From: a virus
IMG/VR virus record: IMGVR_UViG_3300029309_000027
Location: 1 to 61,638 of that record
Reading direction: 5' to 3' (one strand)
DNA length: 61,638 nt
How positions within the stretch are numbered: the first letter of the stretch is position 1; the number at the start of each line of letters is the position of its first letter. The translations under genes were made by a program, and so were the position numbers. The notes under the pieces were generated by a model. It did no database searches. It was not told the origin of the DNA and saw nothing but the letters and a program-made list of their open reading frames with translations. Shown here piece after piece: positions 1,830-57,108 of this stretch.

Positions 1830-4800
1830 AGAACAGAAAGAAAAAGGCCCCTGGTGCCTACCTCAAGAAAAAAAAAGTAAAGAAGTATCAAGAGGGGGGT
1901 AAGGAGCCTGGGGTAAAAGACCTATTGAGTTACCTCGAGGGTTTTGACCCTAATAGGCGCATGCAAGTCCCTACTTCTGATGCCTTCGATATCCCAGTAG
2001 CTCAAGTCAATCTCCCTGCTGCTGAAGTGGTGACAGAGGGGACAGAGACCACTGTAAACCGCATGCTGCCTGAGCGCCTGGCCAAAACCGAAGGGGACCT
2101 GGCGGCGATCTACAAGGAACTTGGTAGTGAGGGGGTCGATAAGTACCTGGATATGACCCAAGGGGTAGTGGATGCACAGAACAGGGCGTATGAGCTCATT
2201 GAGCCTTTCTTGTACCTGACCCCGATGGGGACCCCAGCAATGCTTAACCATATTGTCAATAACCTAGAGGATTACAACCCACAGGATCCTGAGGGGGCGC
2301 TGAACCTGGCTGGTGCTCTCGCTACGTTTGGTAGAGGCAAAGCCCCACAGCCTGTTACTATTGCAGAGCGTTTTGCCATGCAGGGGCTGAAGGATAAGGT
2401 GACAGAGAAGTTCAGGCAGATCTTCCCGCGTAAACCTGAGATTGTCCCTGGTACTGGTCGCCCTCAGGGCGCCCCGTCACAATCTGGTATGTTCAGCGCA
2501 ATGGAAGAGGCAGCTACAGAAGCAGAGTTTGCAAGAACACTAGCTCTCCCAGGGTCGCAAACTCCAGCAGCAAGAATTTCCCCCCTGGCAGAACAGACTT
2601 TCCGTAGGGATGATGCATCAGGTCTAGCAGCCTTGACACGCTTAATATCTGACCCAAAAACAAAGTTTGAAGACCTGCCCCGCCTGGCCCAATCTGCGAT
2701 CACGGGGCGGCATGCTTCGTATGATGATAACAAACCTGGCTATCAAATCATTCGCAATGCTTTGTTGGCCAGGGGGTATGTCAATCCCGATCGTGATTCT
2801 GCTCCAGGCTATACTCTCTTTCAAAACAGAAGTGCTGGTAGTCTAGAACCTTCAAGCTTTACTCTTCTGGAGGACACGAGAACCTGGCGGCAAACAAAAC
2901 AGGGTAATACCCTAGGCGAGATGGGGTCGTACAACCCTTGGTCGGTCAATCCATTTGTGGGATCAAATAAAGCGCTGGCAAAAAATATCCAGCAGATCCC
3001 CCTTCTGATAGGAGATAAGTTCTTGAACAAGGTTCGTAAGCAGAAAGGCACTGGACTTTTGGAAATCGAATCCCTCAAAGAGCAGCTCAATGCAAAAGGG
3101 GTAAAAGAAAAAGACAGGGCGTTGATTTTAGACCTCGTTGACAATCTCACTGAGCATGATATGTTACCTCAAGAGGGCTATATCGACCCAAGTCAGCTCA
3201 GGGGATATATCGCCGCGTACTACACGGACAACAGAACTACGGGTCAATTCTTTGACCCTGAAGATTTTCTAGATGAAGATGGTCGTCGTCTCTTCGAGGA
3301 TGGACAACTTGGAATCGATCAAGCCGATAATTACTTGAACTTCAAGTACTCTGGTTACGGGATGAAAAACCTGGGGTATAAGACAGTACCTGTTGATGGA
3401 GTAGACGTCCGAAACAATTTCTTTGACCCCGCAGGCAACCCCTTCCAGATCCAGATCTACGGTGTAGCGGCAGAAAATCCTACGTTAGCACCAAGCTATG
3501 CTACGGGATACCTGTATGAAAGTCAAGAGGGACACATGGGTCATGTGAGAGAAATCTTGGTCACACCAAAAGATGGGGGGGCCAAGAGGCACTACATTGT
3601 TGAGATACAGTCTAACGCCCTGCAGAAAAACAAGCTACCAGAAAATCTGCAGTATATTGAACCCAGGGCCATTCACGCATCGGCTAGACCAGAGCTAGAT
3701 GGGAAAATGAAATTCCTCAACCTATCTACTGGCCTGGATGCGGAAGCTGTTTTTGGTGATCCCAATCCGTTGAACAGTGCCTTGTGGGCCACCACGGATC
3801 CCTACAGCAAGTTTCGACAGCACGGCAGGATCGATAACATACCTGAAATGGTAGAGGATATGCCACATGCATACGACCCTAAATACTGGGATGGGGTTGT
3901 GGAGTATCACAACAACCTGCTCCGAAAGATCGGAGATACTAATGATTTCGGATCCAGTGGGTATGCAGGGCGGCGACTGCTAGAGCAGGGTACTAAGCAA
4001 ACCAGAGAGTTTGCTGCAGATGAACTTCGACAGAATCTTCGAGACATGGTCGATCGGCAAAAACGTGACGCCATAGACAAGGGCTTTGTTACGTACCTGC
4101 CTAAGACGGTACAGGGGACAAACTTCACCGAAGCGGAGATAGAGAACCACCCGTTGGTAGAAGACTTGAGGGTAAGCCGTGAGGGGATTTATACTGTTTA
4201 CCTGCCTGATGGGATCGTGTATGTGACTAAGAAGTATAGAGGGGGCGAGGATGTTTCATCAATCATCACGGGAGACCTAAGCGAAATCACAAGAGTGCTG
4301 ATGAACGATCATTGGGGCCGTTTTTCGGATAAAATGTATTTTGCTCGTCAGGTACAATTCTATGGGTATATCCCTGTCACGTACAGGGATGTATTAGGTA
4401 CAAATATTACGATGTTCCCAGACCAGGTCATGGCGCCTCTGGAGGATCAGTGGAAAATGGCTAATCTGGCCACGCGCAATGCATCTTTGGACCTTCAAGA
4501 ATATGTTACTGAGCAGGGTCAAAATGCCAGTCGTCTGCAGCAGTATCTGGAAATGAACGACTTGAACCCCCCTGGCACGTTTACTGACGCTCGGCTTCAG
4601 GATTCATTTGATCAGGAGGCTGAGTTCTACAACATGCAGAGCAAGTTGAGGGCGCTCTATGAGGAGGTAAACATCGATCAACTAGAAAAGTGGGATAGAC
4701 GTCCGAAAGTCCCGAAAAACAATCCTGAGCAAAAAAACCTACTGAAAAACAAGACTCAGTTCATGTTGACCGAGTACTTGACGGACCTAATCGGTACATA

Positions 4801-9651: not shown

Positions 9652-11769
9652 ATGCTGACAGAAGTAAAAGGCTATGAAGAAAAAGCTGTGGGCATTTGCC
9701 CCAACGGTACGCTGGGCGACCACATCGAAATCGGTGGGGTTCTCATTGTCCTTCCCAAGGCCCCTAAAGTCAGAGACATCCTCTTCCACGATCTTGCCGT
9801 TGAGGATCAGCGATGGAGGAGAACTGATCTACCAAAAGAGATATCGCGTATACGCTCTATGGATGAGTGGGCGGAAATGCCGAGGGAATTTAGAGAAAAG
9901 TTTCGTCCATATATCGAAGAAGAGTTTCGGCGTAGGCGTGAAGGGGTTTGGTTTTATAATCGAGGTGATGCTACATACATCACTGGTCGGCACTATATGA
10001 TGCTGCAGTGGTCAGTGCTCGACGTGGGGGCGCCGTACTACCTTGAATTTCAAAGAGATATATTCTTACATTTGGCTGCGTGTGAGGCAGACCCTCGTTG
10101 TATTGGACAGCTATATACTAAGTGCCGTAGATCAGGATACACTAACATATGTTCTTCTGTCATCGTTGACGAGGCTACCCAGGTAAAAGACAAGCTCCTG
10201 GGGATACAGAGTAAGACGGGTAAAGACGCACAAGAGAACATCTTTATGAAGAAGGTGGTCGCTATGTTTCGTAAGTACCCCTTCTTCTTTAAGCCCATCC
10301 AAGACGGCACCACCAACCCGCGTATGGAGCTTGCTTTCCGTGAGCCATCTAAAAAGATTACGAAGAACAACAAGACGGCCACAGTTGGGGACGCCTTGAA
10401 TACAGTGATTAACTGGAAGAATACGACTAACAACGCCTACGACGGGGAGAAGCTGCACTTATTGTATTTAGATGAGGCAGGGAAATGGGAAAAACCCACA
10501 GATATAAGAGAGGCTTGGAGGATTCAGAGGACCTGTTTGATAGTGGGTCGGAAGGTGGTCGGAAAGGCTATGGTCGGAAGCACCGTAAACCCCATGGGAA
10601 AAGGGGGAAGAGAGTACAAGGACCTCTGGGCGGATTCGAATCCTGGGGAGAGGAACAAGAATGGTAGGACCAGGTCTGGTCTATACAGGTTGTTCATCCC
10701 TGCATACGATTCCTTAGAGGGGTTCTTTGATCAGTACGGTAAATCTGTTGTAGAAGACCCTGAGGATATGGTGATGGGGATTGATGGGGAGATGATCCAC
10801 ATGGGTGCTAAGACGTTTCTAAAAAACGAGCGAGACAGCTTGCGCCACGATGCTTCTGAGTTAAACGAAACAGTTCGTCAGTTTCCCTTTACAGAAGACG
10901 AAGCGTTCAGAGATAGCATTGAGTCCACCCTATTTAATATCGGCCACATCTACGAGCAGGTGGAGCACAACGACTCTCTGTACCCCAACCCAATAGTATC
11001 TGGACAATTCTCTTGGAAGGGTGGGGTAGAAGACAGTGAGGTCGTCTTTACCCCAGACCCCAATGGCAGATTCAAGGTGGCGTGGATGCCGCCCCCAGCA
11101 CTTCGGAACGTCAAGAGTTATGAGAAAAGCAAAAGAGTACCACCTCACGTACACCTTGGTTGTGGCGGGGTGGATAGCTACGATCTCGACGCTACTGTGG
11201 ATGGGAGAGGATCCAAAGGTGCGCTCCATTTGTACAACAAGTTCAATATGGAGGTGCCTGCTAATATGTTTGTTCTTGAGTACGCTGCCCGTCCGCCGCT
11301 GGCTTCGATATTTTATGAAGATGTGCTTATGGCGGCGGTCTTCTACGGGTACCCCATCTTAATCGAGAACAACAAGTATGGTATCGCCAGGTACTTTGAG
11401 CAGCGTGGTTACGATGGCTATCTCATGGATCGCCCAAAACACTTGCTGTCTGGTAGTGGTGCGGTCAAAGTAAAAACCAAGGGGATCCCATCTAATTCTT
11501 TAGATGTGATTCAGTCCCATGCTCAGGCTATCGAGGCTTACATACATGAACACGTCGGCATCAACAGAGACACTGGCGAGATGGGGAAGATGTATTTCAA
11601 CGCTACTATGGAGGACTGGATTGGTTATGACATCAACAATAGAACTAAGTTTGACTTGACAATTAGTTCTGGTCTTGCATTATTAGCTTCACAAAAAGTA
11701 AAACCCACTGCCCCCCCTACAGACTTTAGCGAAAGACGCTTTTTTAGGCGATATAAAGTCAGGGGCTAA
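9652..11769 (+). CDS. terL: Terminase large subunit
   Basis: This 705-residue protein is the DNA-packaging motor. The ATPase part contains a degenerate P-loop-like CRRSGYT near residue 156, where the usual lysine is absent, and a clear Walker B segment LHLLYLDEA near 266-274. The C-terminal RNase H-like nuclease half begins with GVDSYD near 506, which supplies the first catalytic aspartate, and ends in a short basic tail. Length and order match large terminases of Bacteroidetes podoviruses and crAss-like phages. The portal gene follows after a promoter box. Confidence 0.92.
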   Translation: MLTEVKGYEEKAVGICPNGTLGDHIEIGGVLIVLPKAPKVRDILFHDLAVEDQRWRRTDLPKEISRIRSMDEWAEMPREFREKFRPYIEEEFRRRREGVWFYNRGDATYITGRHYMMLQWSVLDVGAPYYLEFQRDIFLHLAACEADPRCIGQLYTKCRRSGYTNICSSVIVDEATQVKDKLLGIQSKTGKDAQENIFMKKVVAMFRKYPFFFKPIQDGTTNPRMELAFREPSKKITKNNKTATVGDALNTVINWKNTTNNAYDGEKLHLLYLDEAGKWEKPTDIREAWRIQRTCLIVGRKVVGKAMVGSTVNPMGKGGREYKDLWADSNPGERNKNGRTRSGLYRLFIPAYDSLEGFFDQYGKSVVEDPEDMVMGIDGEMIHMGAKTFLKNERDSLRHDASELNETVRQFPFTEDEAFRDSIESTLFNIGHIYEQVEHNDSLYPNPIVSGQFSWKGGVEDSEVVFTPDPNGRFKVAWMPPPALRNVKSYEKSKRVPPHVHLGCGGVDSYDLDATVDGRGSKGALHLYNKFNMEVPANMFVLEYAARPPLASIFYEDVLMAAVFYGYPILIENNKYGIARYFEQRGYDGYLMDRPKHLLSGSGAVKVKTKGIPSNSLDVIQSHAQAIEAYIHEHVGINRDTGEMGKMYFNATMEDWIGYDINNRTKFDLTISSGLALLASQKVKPTAPPTDFSERRFFRRYKVRG

Positions 11770-14697: not shown

Positions 14698-16361
14698 TGT
14701 CAACTCAAGTAACAGTAACAGGGGGGACTAGAGTAACAGTATCAGTACCATCCACTGGATCCGTTTCAGTAATTAGCACTGGTGTAAAGGGGGAGACTGG
14801 GGCCACAGGAGCAACAGGTCCCGCAGGTCCCGCAGGCGCTACGGGCGCTACGGGCGCTACGGGCGCAACAGGTCCAACAGGCGCAACAGGCCCTCAGGGA
14901 CCACAAGGTCCTGCGGGTTCAGATGGTGCCGACGGTGCTGATGGTGGCACAAACATCGTAGTGGATACCTCCCCGCAGCTTGGCGGGGACCTAGATGTAA
15001 ATGGTAATGACATTGTCAGCACTTCCAACGGGGACATTGATATCAAGCCCAATGGAGACGGGAAGGTCAATATAGATAGCTCTAGTTCATCGAGTGGGGT
15101 CAAAATATCAGATGGTCACGTCGAACTAAGAAGTGGCACTGGTAGCCCCGCCAAGATTGACTTTTACTGCGAAAGTGCTGCGGCCCACAAGGTCACAGTT
15201 CAGGCTCCCGCACACGCTAGTTTTTCAGGGGATGTGCAGTTCACCCTCCCAACATCTAACGGCAGTAGCGGTCAGGTATTGAAGACAGATGGGTCTGGAA
15301 ACCTGTCGTATGTAAATCAAACGTCTGACACTCAGCTTACCACCGAGGAAGTCCAAGACATAGCTGGTGGAATGTTCACTGGCAACACCGAAAGTGGTAT
15401 CACTGCGACCTATCAAGACGCGGACGGCACCATCGACTTAGAAGTGGGTGGCCTGACGGTGGCGCAGGGTGGAACAGGCGCCACTTCGTTTGCTGACAAG
15501 TCAGTGTTGATTACGCAGGACAGCGGGACCGATACAGTATCTGCTGCGGCCATGTCCACTAACGGTCAGCTTTTGATTGGGGGGACTAGCGGACCTGCTG
15601 TAGCCACCCTGACGGCTGGTAGCAACGTCACGATTACCAATGCTGACGGAGCCATTACTATTGCTGCCTCAGGTGGTGGTGGTGGTGGTGGCGGTGACAT
15701 CGAGGGTGTTACCGCAGGGGATGGGCTCTCTGGTGGTGGCACCACGGGCACTGTGACTTTGAATGTGGGGGCTGCTCAGACGACAATTACTTCGATCATC
15801 AACAGCAGCCTGACGAAGATTGGTACGGCTACCGATCAAGAGTATATAGACTTCAGCACCGCTGATGAGGTCAACACTAAGATCAATGATACAGAGCGTC
15901 TCAGCGTAACAAACACGGGCGTTGACGTTACTGGTGAGCTCACATCAACAAAGAATGTCTTTGCTAAAACCTCAAACACGGACTTCAGTGTTCAAGGGGA
16001 TATTGTAAAGATTGGGACTGGTAGCACAACTCAAGGCGAATTGTGCTACTACAAATCTGACGGGACTTGGGCTGCAGCCGATGCAGACGCTGCTGCAACT
16101 TCTGGTGGGTGTCTTCTTGCTATCGCGCTCGGCACAGACCCAGATGTTGACGGCATGCTTTTGCGCGGAATGTTCACTAGAGACCACCAAGACGCAAGCC
16201 TGGCTGATGAGCTGTATGTCTCTACTACGGCAGGGGATATTACTGGCACCCCGCCGTCTGGTAACGGTGATGTCGTCCGTGTGGTGGGGTACTGCCTAGA
16301 CAGCACGAATGGTCAGATTTGGTTCAACCCATCAAATGACTTCATTGTCCTGTCAGTATAA
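14697..16361 (+). CDS. Tail fibre with collagen-like segment
   Basis: After a short beta N-terminus, residues about 32-80 form a Gly-X-Y collagen-like region with repeated GAT, GPA and GPQ triplets. This is followed by fibre-type repeats, including [18 protein letters not shown] and [16 protein letters not shown], a poly-glycine stretch near 322-330, and a C-terminal beta domain. Collagen-like phage fibres are trimeric. The AQGGTGAT repeat is typical of fibre shafts. It very likely contributes to receptor recognition together with the next gene, which it overlaps by one base. Confidence 0.88.
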
Positions 16362-55294: not shown

Positions 55295-55495
55295 TCAGTA
55301 ATCAGGTGATTCGTGTATGATAAATTCTTCGATGCACTCGTACTCGCTTTTGGTTTCGACGTTGTACTTGGATTCAAGAAACTCTTTGTATATCTCGGAT
55401 GCTAGCCCCCACTTGGTGTCGAGAGCTTGGTCAACTAAGGAGTCGTCACGACATTCCAACAGGTGGAGCGTAACGTATATGTAGTACGGGTTCAT
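55295..55495 (-). CDS. Hypothetical protein (66 aa)
   Basis: I chose the ATG at 55495 (MNPYYIYVTLHLLECRDD) because it overlaps the upstream stop in an ATGA arrangement. The C-terminus is acidic (EYECIEEFIIHESPDY). Function unknown. Confidence 0.5.
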   Translation of the reverse strand: MNPYYIYVTLHLLECRDDSLVDQALDTKWGLASEIYKEFLESKYNVETKSEYECIEEFIIHESPDY

Positions 55496-55662
55496 GCTTG
55501 CTCGTTTTTCCATTGGTCAGCGCGAAAGGCGGTTTCCGCTTTTGAGATTTCGACGTAGACCTCGAAGCCTACGTGAACGTATACCGACCCGTCTTTTTCG
55601 TATGCGTCCACATCAATAGACTCGAAGTGCTTGAGGCAATCCTTTATTACAATCTTGTTCAT
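55492..55662 (-). CDS. Hypothetical protein (56 aa)
   Basis: The ATG at 55662 opens MNKIVIKDCLKHFESIDVDA and the product contains SVYVHVGFEVYVEISKAETAF, two strands and a helix. The start is preceded by the leader AAACACAGAACAC. Its stop overlaps the next start by four bases. The tRNA-like gene ends 15 bases upstream. Confidence 0.55.
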   Translation of the reverse strand: MNKIVIKDCLKHFESIDVDAYEKDGSVYVHVGFEVYVEISKAETAFRADQWKNEQA

Positions 55663-55677
55663 GTGTTCTGTGTTTGT

Positions 55678-55770
55678 GATGCGGGAGGGAATCGAACCCT
55701 CCAGTGTAATCTGTCACTTGGGCATTCGCGTTACCCGACTGGAACCATACACTTTCCGCCACTTCGCATC
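55678..55770 (-). tRNA. Atypical class II tRNA-like gene
   Basis: On the minus strand GATGCGA pairs with CCGCATC (six of seven positions) as an acceptor stem. A T arm GAGGG-TTCGATT-CCCTC is perfect. A 17-base arm GGGTA-ACGCGAA-TGCCC could be the anticodon arm, with anticodon GCG but C instead of U before it. A long variable arm (AGTG/CACT) is present. The D region is about eight bases too long, although GGAA/TTCC could pair. It may be a degenerate or unusual tRNA; the anticodon is uncertain. Confidence 0.5.
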
Positions 55771-55775
55771 ATGTA

Positions 55776-55966
55776 GTAGGCGCTTGGCTCTTCGGCGGCC
55801 TACCGTGTGAGTAACTCTCAAGACATTACCTGTCGGGAAACCCGATATAATGTGAGAGTATAAACCTTGCCCCTGTCGAACCCAGTCGGGGTATTTCTCA
55901 CGCCGCTCATCCGTGGAGTGTCAGCTCCCGATGAGTGTTGCACTTCTGTCTGACACATATGCAACA
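55776..55966 (-). ncRNA. Strongly structured non-coding RNA candidate
   Basis: Five hairpins stand in a row with no gene between: GTAGGC/GCCTAC (55776-55781 with 55798-55803), a long three-step hairpin (CTCTCA, CATTA and TCGGG with their partners, 55815-55858), CCCC/GGGG plus CTG/CAG (55870-55891), CTCATC with inner GGAG (55906-55935), and TGTTGCA/TGCAACA (55936-55966). An alternative seven-bp pairing (GTGTCAG 55918-55924 with CTGACAC 55950-55956) would replace the last two, as in a switch. It lies directly before the tRNA-like gene on the transcript. Confidence 0.55.
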
Positions 55967-55973
55967 GGTGTGT

Positions 55974-56420
55974 TTATCTTCTTCTCTTCCTGCGAACCTC
56001 CCCTGTGATAGGATGCGTGTTGCAATCCGATGCTCTCAGCCCTCGGTCATTAGCCCCTCTCTTCTTCTTCCGCTTGGCTCCCACGGGTGCAGGGGTGTCG
56101 AGCACTAGCTTGATCCCGCCTGGCAGGTGGGAGCGGAACTGCTTCATCTCCTCCTTAGTGGCTCCCCACTTCCCCACCCCTGTCATCAGCAGTTCCTGAA
56201 TGTCCTCCGAGTGTATGTGCGCTCGGAAGTAGGACGCCGCTCGACGGAGGGTCATCGCAGGTCCTCTCACCTTGTCCATCTCCTCATGCGTCATCGTGTT
56301 CCTCCACTCTGAACGAGGGCCGTGAACCCTGACGCAGAATTCCATCTCCTGCCTCGCTCTGTCTTCCAACACCTCGGCCATGTGCATGTCGAGGTGTACG
56401 GTTCGTGTGTACATATTCAT
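55974..56420 (-). CDS. Basic hypothetical protein (148 aa)
   Basis: The N-terminal part is helical (HLDMHMAEVLEDRARQEMEF), the middle has RGPAMTLRRAASYFRAHIH, and the C-terminus is very basic (GAKRKKKRGANDRGLR and RRKRRR at the end). It may bind nucleic acid, perhaps the adjacent RNAs. It starts 15 bases after the tRNA-Arg and uses the AACACGAGAACA leader. Confidence 0.55.
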   Translation of the reverse strand: MNMYTRTVHLDMHMAEVLEDRARQEMEFCVRVHGPRSEWRNTMTHEEMDKVRGPAMTLRRAASYFRAHIHSEDIQELLMTGVGKWGATKEEMKQFRSHLPGGIKLVLDTPAPVGAKRKKKRGANDRGLRASDCNTHPITGEVRRKRRR

Positions 56421-56435
56421 TTGTTCTCGTGTTTG

Positions 56436-56508
56436 TGCCCGTGGCAGGAATCGAACCTGCGACCGACTGCTTAGAAGGCAGTTGCTCTATCCCCTGAGCT
56501 ACACGGGC
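56436..56508 (-). tRNA. tRNA-Arg (UCU)
   Basis: This 73-base gene folds into a normal cloverleaf: acceptor GCCCGTG/CACGGGC, D arm beginning TAGCTCAGGGG, anticodon arm ACTGC-CTTCTAA-GCAGT with anticodon TCT, and T arm CGCAGG-TTCGAAT-CCTG. The discriminator is A and CCA is not encoded. It reads AGA codons, which the phage genes use frequently. Confidence 0.93.
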
Positions 56509-56628
56509 GAACGGGGGGAGTCCCTAAACCCTCCCCCCTGGCATACTTCGAGGGACCAATCTCACGCTATGCTAAACGCTACAATGTGGGTTGCCCACAA
56601 GTTTAGTTGTGGGGTCCCCCCAACTGTC
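56509..56628 (-). other. Structured spacer upstream of tRNA-Arg
   Basis: No gene is seen in these 120 bases. They contain a perfect eight-bp hairpin (GGGGGGAG 56513-56520 with CTCCCCCC 56531-56538) and further G/C-rich inverted repeats such as GTGGG-CAA-CCCAC on the minus strand. They could process the tRNA 5' end or attenuate transcription. Confidence 0.5.
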
Positions 56629-57108
56629 CTACAAATCGGACTCTTTAGTTGGGTCAAGGAGGTACTCACGTCCGCCAGTAATGCGGTATATACGTTGGTC
56701 TGTCTGCGCTTTCTTGTGAATCTCTCGGATGTCCGACTCAATACGGGCAACACGAACGAGATAACCTGTGAAATGATCGCTGTGTGGAGCCACCCTATGG
56801 ATCTGAACCCCATAGCTACTTGGGTCCACGTTGAACTCAGTAGCGAGAGCCTGACCACGCAGAATTAGTTCGTGCCACGCCTCAAACCCACCCGCCAAGT
56901 TCAACCGTTCGGTGCGTGTACCTCGTTCGAAGAAGAAGTATCCGTATGACACAGGGTTGAGGAAGACATCGCACGAGACAATGTCTTGTCCGAAGGCAAG
57001 GCATCTACCACCAGACTCAGCAAAAACCCTAGTCGTTGCGTTGCAGTGAAGCAGCTTCGGGGTGTAGTCTTGGAAGGCAACGCCTTCGTCAGGTATGTGT
57101 TCACTCAT
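56629..57108 (-). CDS. Hypothetical protein (159 aa)
   Basis: The sequence includes VAFQDYTPKLLHCNATTRVF, SCDVFLNPVSYGYFFFERG and RLNLAGGFEAWHELILRGQAL, with a helical C-terminus. It is mixed alpha/beta and soluble. No family is recognised. It overlaps the upstream gene by eight bases. Confidence 0.55.
   Translation of the reverse strand: MSEHIPDEGVAFQDYTPKLLHCNATTRVFAESGGRCLAFGQDIVSCDVFLNPVSYGYFFFERGTRTERLNLAGGFEAWHELILRGQALATEFNVDPSSYGVQIHRVAPHSDHFTGYLVRVARIESDIREIHKKAQTDQRIYRITGGREYLLDPTKESDL

Follow-up and report, generated by a model that had tools for sequence, protein, structure and literature searches.

The window, which spans the 61,638 bases of virus record IMGVR_UViG_3300029309_000027, comes from a marine phage. 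The terminase is similar to those of phages of Flavobacterium and Cellulophaga and to that of a spring-water podovirus (at most 50% identity among the named phages listed), and closer terminase relatives are numerous among viral contigs; because of the similarity to Flavobacterium and Cellulophaga phages, the host probably belongs to the Bacteroidota. A structured element, read from the minus strand, sits between two small open reading frames (ORFs), and these ORFs, like the sole tRNA called in the window, lie on the same strand. The features are as follows.

56435-56508, minus strand: tRNA-Arg(TCT), called by ARAGORN and Rfam
55974-56420, minus strand: 148-aa ORF, ending directly before the structured element
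55776-55971, minus strand: whole structured element, with homologs in L172, L196, L197, L194 (cut by the contig end) and L217 (first two hairpins only)
55936-55966, minus strand: hairpin 1, stem TGTTGCA/TGCAACA, with TGTCAG in its loop at 55950-55955
55919-55955, minus strand: proposed 6-bp kissing loop, TGTCAG (55950-55955) with CTGACA (55919-55924)
55906-55935, minus strand: hairpin 2, stems CTCATC/GATGAG and GGAG/CTCC, with the 6-nt loop CTGACA at 55919-55924
55807-55901, minus strand: junction closed by GTGAG/CTCAC, enclosing a CCCC/GGGG hairpin at 55870-55891
55814-55859, minus strand: 46-nt insert hairpin, ACTCTC-ACATTA-TCGGG/CCCGA-TAATGT-GAGAGT, found in the window copy only among the four full-length members
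55776-55803, minus strand: 3′ hairpin GTAGGC/GCCTAC, ending 5 nt before the tRNA-like element
55678-55770, minus strand: tRNA-like element, acceptor GATGCGA/CCGCATC and T-arm GAGGG-TTCGATT-CCCTC, with irregular arms between
55492-55662, minus strand: 56-aa ORF

The minus strand thus runs from the stop of the 148-aa ORF (55974) through the structured element and the tRNA-like element and, after 15 nt, into the ATG of the 56-aa ORF. A protein search with the 148-aa ORF found no relative; by eye, L172 has a similar ORF, which lies farther upstream there. PHROGs had no family for five of six neighboring window proteins and placed the sixth in families of unknown function. No sigma-70-like promoter was found at 55500-56700.

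The preliminary description had reported five hairpins within 55776-55966, beside the tRNA genes and at a density unlikely to arise by chance. All five hairpins are present there, and the fold is better than that of shuffled sequences. Judging from the z-scores and ranks, the density is greater than chance would give on one strand and moderate on the second. With 200 dinucleotide shuffles as the control, the plus strand had a z-score of -4.69 with no shuffle as good, and it ranked 2nd among 218 combinations of 191-base stretch and strand (every third tile of the window plus the element's own stretch, 16 shuffles each), whereas the minus strand had a z-score of -2.34 with three shuffles as good and ranked 33rd. 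Stretches upstream of tRNAs are barely more folded than background (median z of -1.16, n = 23, versus -0.36 for 200 random stretches). The region 5′ of tRNA-Arg (56509-56640) is also hairpin-rich (its last 120 nt have a z of -2.33 against mononucleotide shuffles) and by eye looks like the tRNA-Met leader of L147.

As to the tRNA genes, tRNA-Arg(TCT) does lie nearby, but it is a single gene, and the nearer neighbor is a noncanonical tRNA-like element that begins five bases 3′ of the structured element. ARAGORN did not call this neighbor as a tRNA, and no Rfam RF00005 match to it was listed up to an E value of 5 (one overlapping lower clan match was left out). It scored 22.5 bits against the Rfam tRNA-Sec model, for which the gathering score is 47. 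By eye, it has C at position 33, in the loop ACGCGAA, where a canonical tRNA would have U33, along with normal arms.

Homologs of the structured element were found in five other viral contigs, three of them full length, one cut at a contig edge (L194), and one consisting of the first two hairpins alone (L217), giving six members with the window. L194, L196, and L197 came from a pattern search on the neighboring tRNA-like element and L172 was among the loci examined; two further patterns recovered the L172 record again (as L206) together with L217. Across 23 pairs in the six sequences, 97.8% of cells are paired and three pairs have changed on both sides. One of these is in hairpin 1 (C-G/A-U; 95.2% of cells paired), and the other two lie in hairpin 2, in its apical stem; two basal pairs of hairpin 2 have G-U variants in L197. 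In a shuffle control on the six members, the paired percentage was reached in 1 of 500 shuffles and the covariation score in none of 500.

Comparison of the members also bears on the two alternative folds that had been suggested. The GTGTCAG/CTGACAC pairing, taken before as one of two mutually exclusive folds, runs from loop to loop between two hairpins that are themselves conserved; it is invariant in all six members, six of its 7 bp being counted, and every base of the hairpin 2 loop takes part. It is better read, on this pattern of conservation, as a kissing loop than as a switch, and the contact in three dimensions would follow from that reading; covariation cannot prove the contact, because the kissing pairs never vary. 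The second alternative, TGAGA/TCTCA, needs the insert hairpin, which the other three full-length members lack. What is kept instead is GTGAG/CTCAC, invariant along with CCCC/GGGG in all four full-length members, while next to these junction stems AAAT/ATTT in L172 becomes AGGT/ATCT in L196 and L197. The stem of the 3′ hairpin is GTAGGT/ACCTAC in relatives. Hairpins 1 and 2 abut with no linker between them and could pair between molecules, so that assembly through kissing loops is possible.

A model built on the six members (R1) matched those members alone over 100 loci. In 50 records its next best match reached 12.3 bits; in 50 further terminase-related records, some shared with the first 50, it gave one unconvincing match of 13.6 bits; and in 10 named phages it gave a single match of 16.7 bits, antisense within a coding sequence. 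A BLAST search with the element as query returned only T-arm or chance matches among named phages. A pattern scan of genome contigs gave seven matches, none with CTGACA within 40 bases downstream, and the pattern GATGAGCGGCGTGAGA gave 20, by eye mostly in unrelated coding DNA; a generic kissing-hairpin search was uninformative, with 239 matches in reversed sequence. The search of Rfam that had been recommended (version 15; window and four homolog loci) found no family for the element. A resemblance of one segment to the start of tmRNA also failed to hold up: ARAGORN and the Rfam tmRNA models were negative, and the segment differs in L196 and L197. The exact 16-mer occurs in six other viral contigs, the printed flanks of which are unlike the window region.

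In the relatives, the elements placed like the window's tRNA-like neighbor are reduced to an acceptor, a short A(U/C)GGU linker, and a T-arm; they span 40 to 64 nt and have no anticodon arm. A model built from seven sequences (R2) led to a second set with the acceptors AGCGCA, AGCGTA, or GACACA, and the resulting model R3 defines the mini tRNA-like element by a 6-bp acceptor, a T-arm, AUGGU, and the lack of an anticodon arm. Across 15 copies, 14 of them distinct, both sides have changed in 8 of the 12 stem pairs, in 39 cells; none of 500 shuffles had as many such cells. The acceptor is paired in 100% of cells, with an A-C mismatch at acceptor position 7 in the GATGCG set, and A(U/C)GGU, which is like the GG of the D loop, is kept in 15 of 15. 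The encoded 3′ end varies among ACA, ACC, CAA, CCA, TCT, and GCA, so that CCA is just one of several. In most cases, a mini element is placed between the stop codon of one ORF and the start codon of another. By script, a mini element starts 9 to 19 nt after the stop of an ORF of at least 50 aa in 11 of 14 contexts and is followed within 40 nt by an ATG ORF in only 8 of 14, counts that may include spurious ORFs called over structured elements in L102 and L109. The window's own tRNA-like element scores 38 bits against R3 (E value of 2.1e-7 over the window, filters off) and has ATGGTT inside it, but it carries a 53-nt insert relative to the model.

Over 50 records, R3 gave 16 matches of at least 49 bits, spread across 11 of the records; almost all belong to the 15 rows on which it was trained and are hence not independent. 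On 34 mostly unrelated loci, its sole notable match was in the crAss-like phage cr114_1 (35.6 bits), where the mini element comes after a match to permuted tmRNA (RF04321, 50.9 bits) and before a coding sequence; the sister phage cr125_1 has one as well, making two crAss-like phages at 35.6 bits. Of eight other named phages, six had no match and two had weak ones (MW202828 and CcrSwift, 22 to 23 bits). A literature search, partial in coverage, found no paper on such mini tRNA-like elements in phages. By eye, MW202828.1 has at about 525-700 two tRNA-like elements absent from its annotation table, followed by a terminator-like hairpin; one of the two has a D-arm and a T-arm and no anticodon arm. 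The crAss-like phage L198 (NC_055897.1) carries, at 668-835 and 1124-1528, a RAGATH-9 RNA, a permuted tmRNA with a tRNA-His inside it, and one mini tRNA-like element, and its record annotates 1091-1533 as a single tmRNA.

Several other structured sequences were seen. Hammerhead-like ribozyme motifs occur near tRNA-like elements or between ORFs at L158 2089-2138 (24.9 bits against Rfam Hammerhead_1, gathering score 34), L154 ~261-350 (two motifs in tandem, by eye), and L123 ~1405-1457. A different conserved element, with GTGGT..ACCAC and an H-type pseudoknot apparently formed by GGGTG/CACCC and GCGCAC/GTGCGC, precedes a mini tRNA-like element or tRNA-Arg in L102 (2081-2181), L103, L109, and L110. 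A recurrent element, TTGGTTGATTGAAGTTTGACCA..GGGGG..CCCCC (L114 990-1290, L122 5090-5330, L158 3490, L148 4255, L123 3250, and L117 1-260), precedes a tRNA-like element with the acceptor AAGGGAG/CTCCCTT. L147 (~3475-3612) and L152 (1600-1735) have related structured stretches that end in a T-arm; in L147, the acceptor AGCGATA/TATCGCT encloses ~100 nt in a tmRNA-like layout with no evident tag. At L110 ~11200-11290, the start of a tRNA-Arg is joined to the 3′ half of a different tRNA, with a four-tRNA cluster following; this junction arose either from recombination within a tRNA gene or from a chimeric assembly. Finally, a tRNA-like sequence 93 to 97% conserved over ~63 bases (L122 ~14978-15041, L105, L036, L040, L056, L059, L062, L065, and L074) lies near a terminase gene in most of those loci.

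Each of the five members whose 3′ flank can be seen has a tRNA or tRNA-like element immediately 3′ of the structured element and on the same strand; L194 is cut there. Sequence comparison establishes homologs, covarying hairpins, a fixed place 5′ of tRNAs or tRNA-like elements, and covariation in the mini elements. The reading that fits best, to which we give about an even chance, is that of a structured phage RNA with its 3′ end set by RNase P at the tRNA-like element. The element would be a phage-encoded noncoding RNA of ~150 to 195 nt, transcribed together with its neighbors from the minus strand and folded into two adjacent hairpins with kissing loops, a junction, and a 3′ hairpin. Cotranscribed with the downstream tRNA or tRNA-like element, it would be released when RNase P cuts 5′ of the latter (in the window, at 55771/55770). 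If another tRNA or tRNA-like element is present upstream, its 3′ processing, presumably by RNase Z, would set the 5′ end of the RNA; L196 has a tRNA-like element on each side of the structured element. The tRNA-like element would then serve as a processing mark and not as a decoding tRNA, and the processed product would be stable, most likely a putative trans-acting RNA made early in infection. Counting against this reading are the small number of homologs (six, one incomplete and one short), the invariance of the kissing pairs, the better z-score of the plus strand in all four full-length members, the tRNA-strand folds of L196 and L197, which do not surpass shuffles, the variable encoded 3′ end of the mini elements, and the A-C mismatch at acceptor position 7.

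The main rival casts the element as a 5′ leader that acts in cis on the tRNA or tRNA-like transcript, either shielding it or controlling tRNA maturation, with no separate life after cleavage. The constant place on the same strand, the last hairpin ending 5 nt before the window's tRNA-like element, and the other structured leaders in comparable places all suit a leader, and of the regulatory roles first proposed, which comprised a regulatory RNA, a riboswitch-like element, and a tRNA-processing leader, the last is closest to the conserved, tRNA-linked, structured RNA-like element found here. However, the fold is richer than a leader requires, and in L217 the two hairpins stand by themselves between tRNA-Met and tRNA-Arg. 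We regard a leader without further function as unlikely, if still the most serious competitor.

A mobile or decaying fragment of a tRNA island, kept by phage exchange and with little function, would account for the patchy spread. Relatives with terminases 87 to 89% identical (G003, G005, and G081) carry a different element, by eye with an apparent H-type pseudoknot, beside a tRNA-like element or tRNA-Arg, whereas the present element is found in relatives with 70 to 74% terminase identity and in a phage whose terminase can scarcely be recognized as similar; in the record of L196, no terminase was seen. On this distribution, the module seems to move together with tRNAs. The irregular tRNA-like element of the window, with its C33, would also suit decay. 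The compensatory changes in the hairpins and in the mini elements argue instead for selection on pairing, leaving a fragment of little function fairly improbable.

More doubtful again is that the hairpins act in DNA, for example in recombination or replication. They form on both strands, and the more stable fold is that of the plus strand, the z-score of which is somewhat better than that of the tRNA strand in all four full-length members; nested folding of the tRNA strand of L196 and L197 was no better than that of shuffles (z of -0.15 and 1.33). However, the G-U pairs on the tRNA strand (one in L196 and three in L197) would be A-C mismatches on the opposite strand, and together with the constant orientation to tRNAs they speak for the tRNA strand as the probable RNA strand. 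A riboswitch or other two-state regulatory RNA is very improbable: competing pairings are present in the window's sequence, but the second alternative is not conserved, no Rfam family matches, and no constant gene follows, the downstream neighbor being a tRNA-like element or differing tRNAs.

A released structured RNA has partial counterparts among known systems. By habit, the nearest kind is GOLLD and ROOL, described as ornate, structured, phage-encoded RNAs whose function is unknown, which have kissing loops and frequently lie near tRNA islands (PMC12286853); the present element, at 150 to 196 nt, differs from the many GOLLD RNAs given there as longer than 800 nt, and the GOLLD and ROOL covariance models of Rfam matched neither the window nor four homolog loci. 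The mini elements share the shape of the acceptor/T-arm model substrates of RNase P, in which an acceptor stem is stacked on a T-stem with T-loop and the anticodon arm is lacking (PMC11143913); they differ from the substrates described there in being natural, phage-encoded, and conserved in A(U/C)GGU, and their cleavage is presumed by analogy. Mitochondrial tRNA punctuation, as described in PMC8601606, likewise separates the genes of a polycistronic transcript by marks with the shape of a tRNA; here the setting is a phage, the elements are reduced, and the processing is putative. The permuted tmRNA of crAss-like phages (RF04321) ends near the mini element of cr114_1, whereas the window element has no tmRNA match. 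The tRNA cluster of phage T4 includes RNAs C and D, which are stable, adjoin tRNAs, and have no clear role, and which the present element may resemble in these respects.

The presence of tRNAs in phages is usually put down to codon usage or to evasion of host tRNA damage. Elements reduced to the acceptor/T-arm half and the elbow contact have no means of decoding and so point to another use of the tRNA shape, which may be the marking of cut sites in phage transcripts for host enzymes. A broader and tentative proposal, which we hold with less confidence than the release of the structured RNA itself, is that anticodon-less mini-tRNAs of 40 to 64 nt serve as punctuation at which phages of this marine clade, along with certain crAss-like phages, cut their transcripts, and that the spaces so bounded hold exchangeable structured RNAs; the present element could assemble through its kissing loops, and related places hold pseudoknots and hammerhead-like ribozymes. 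The reduced form explains why standard tRNA finders miss the mini elements, and, with the structured element, the phage RNAs known to adjoin tRNAs gain a small new family. If the proposal is true, such punctuation would be a cheap route by which phages release structured RNAs and set mRNA ends.
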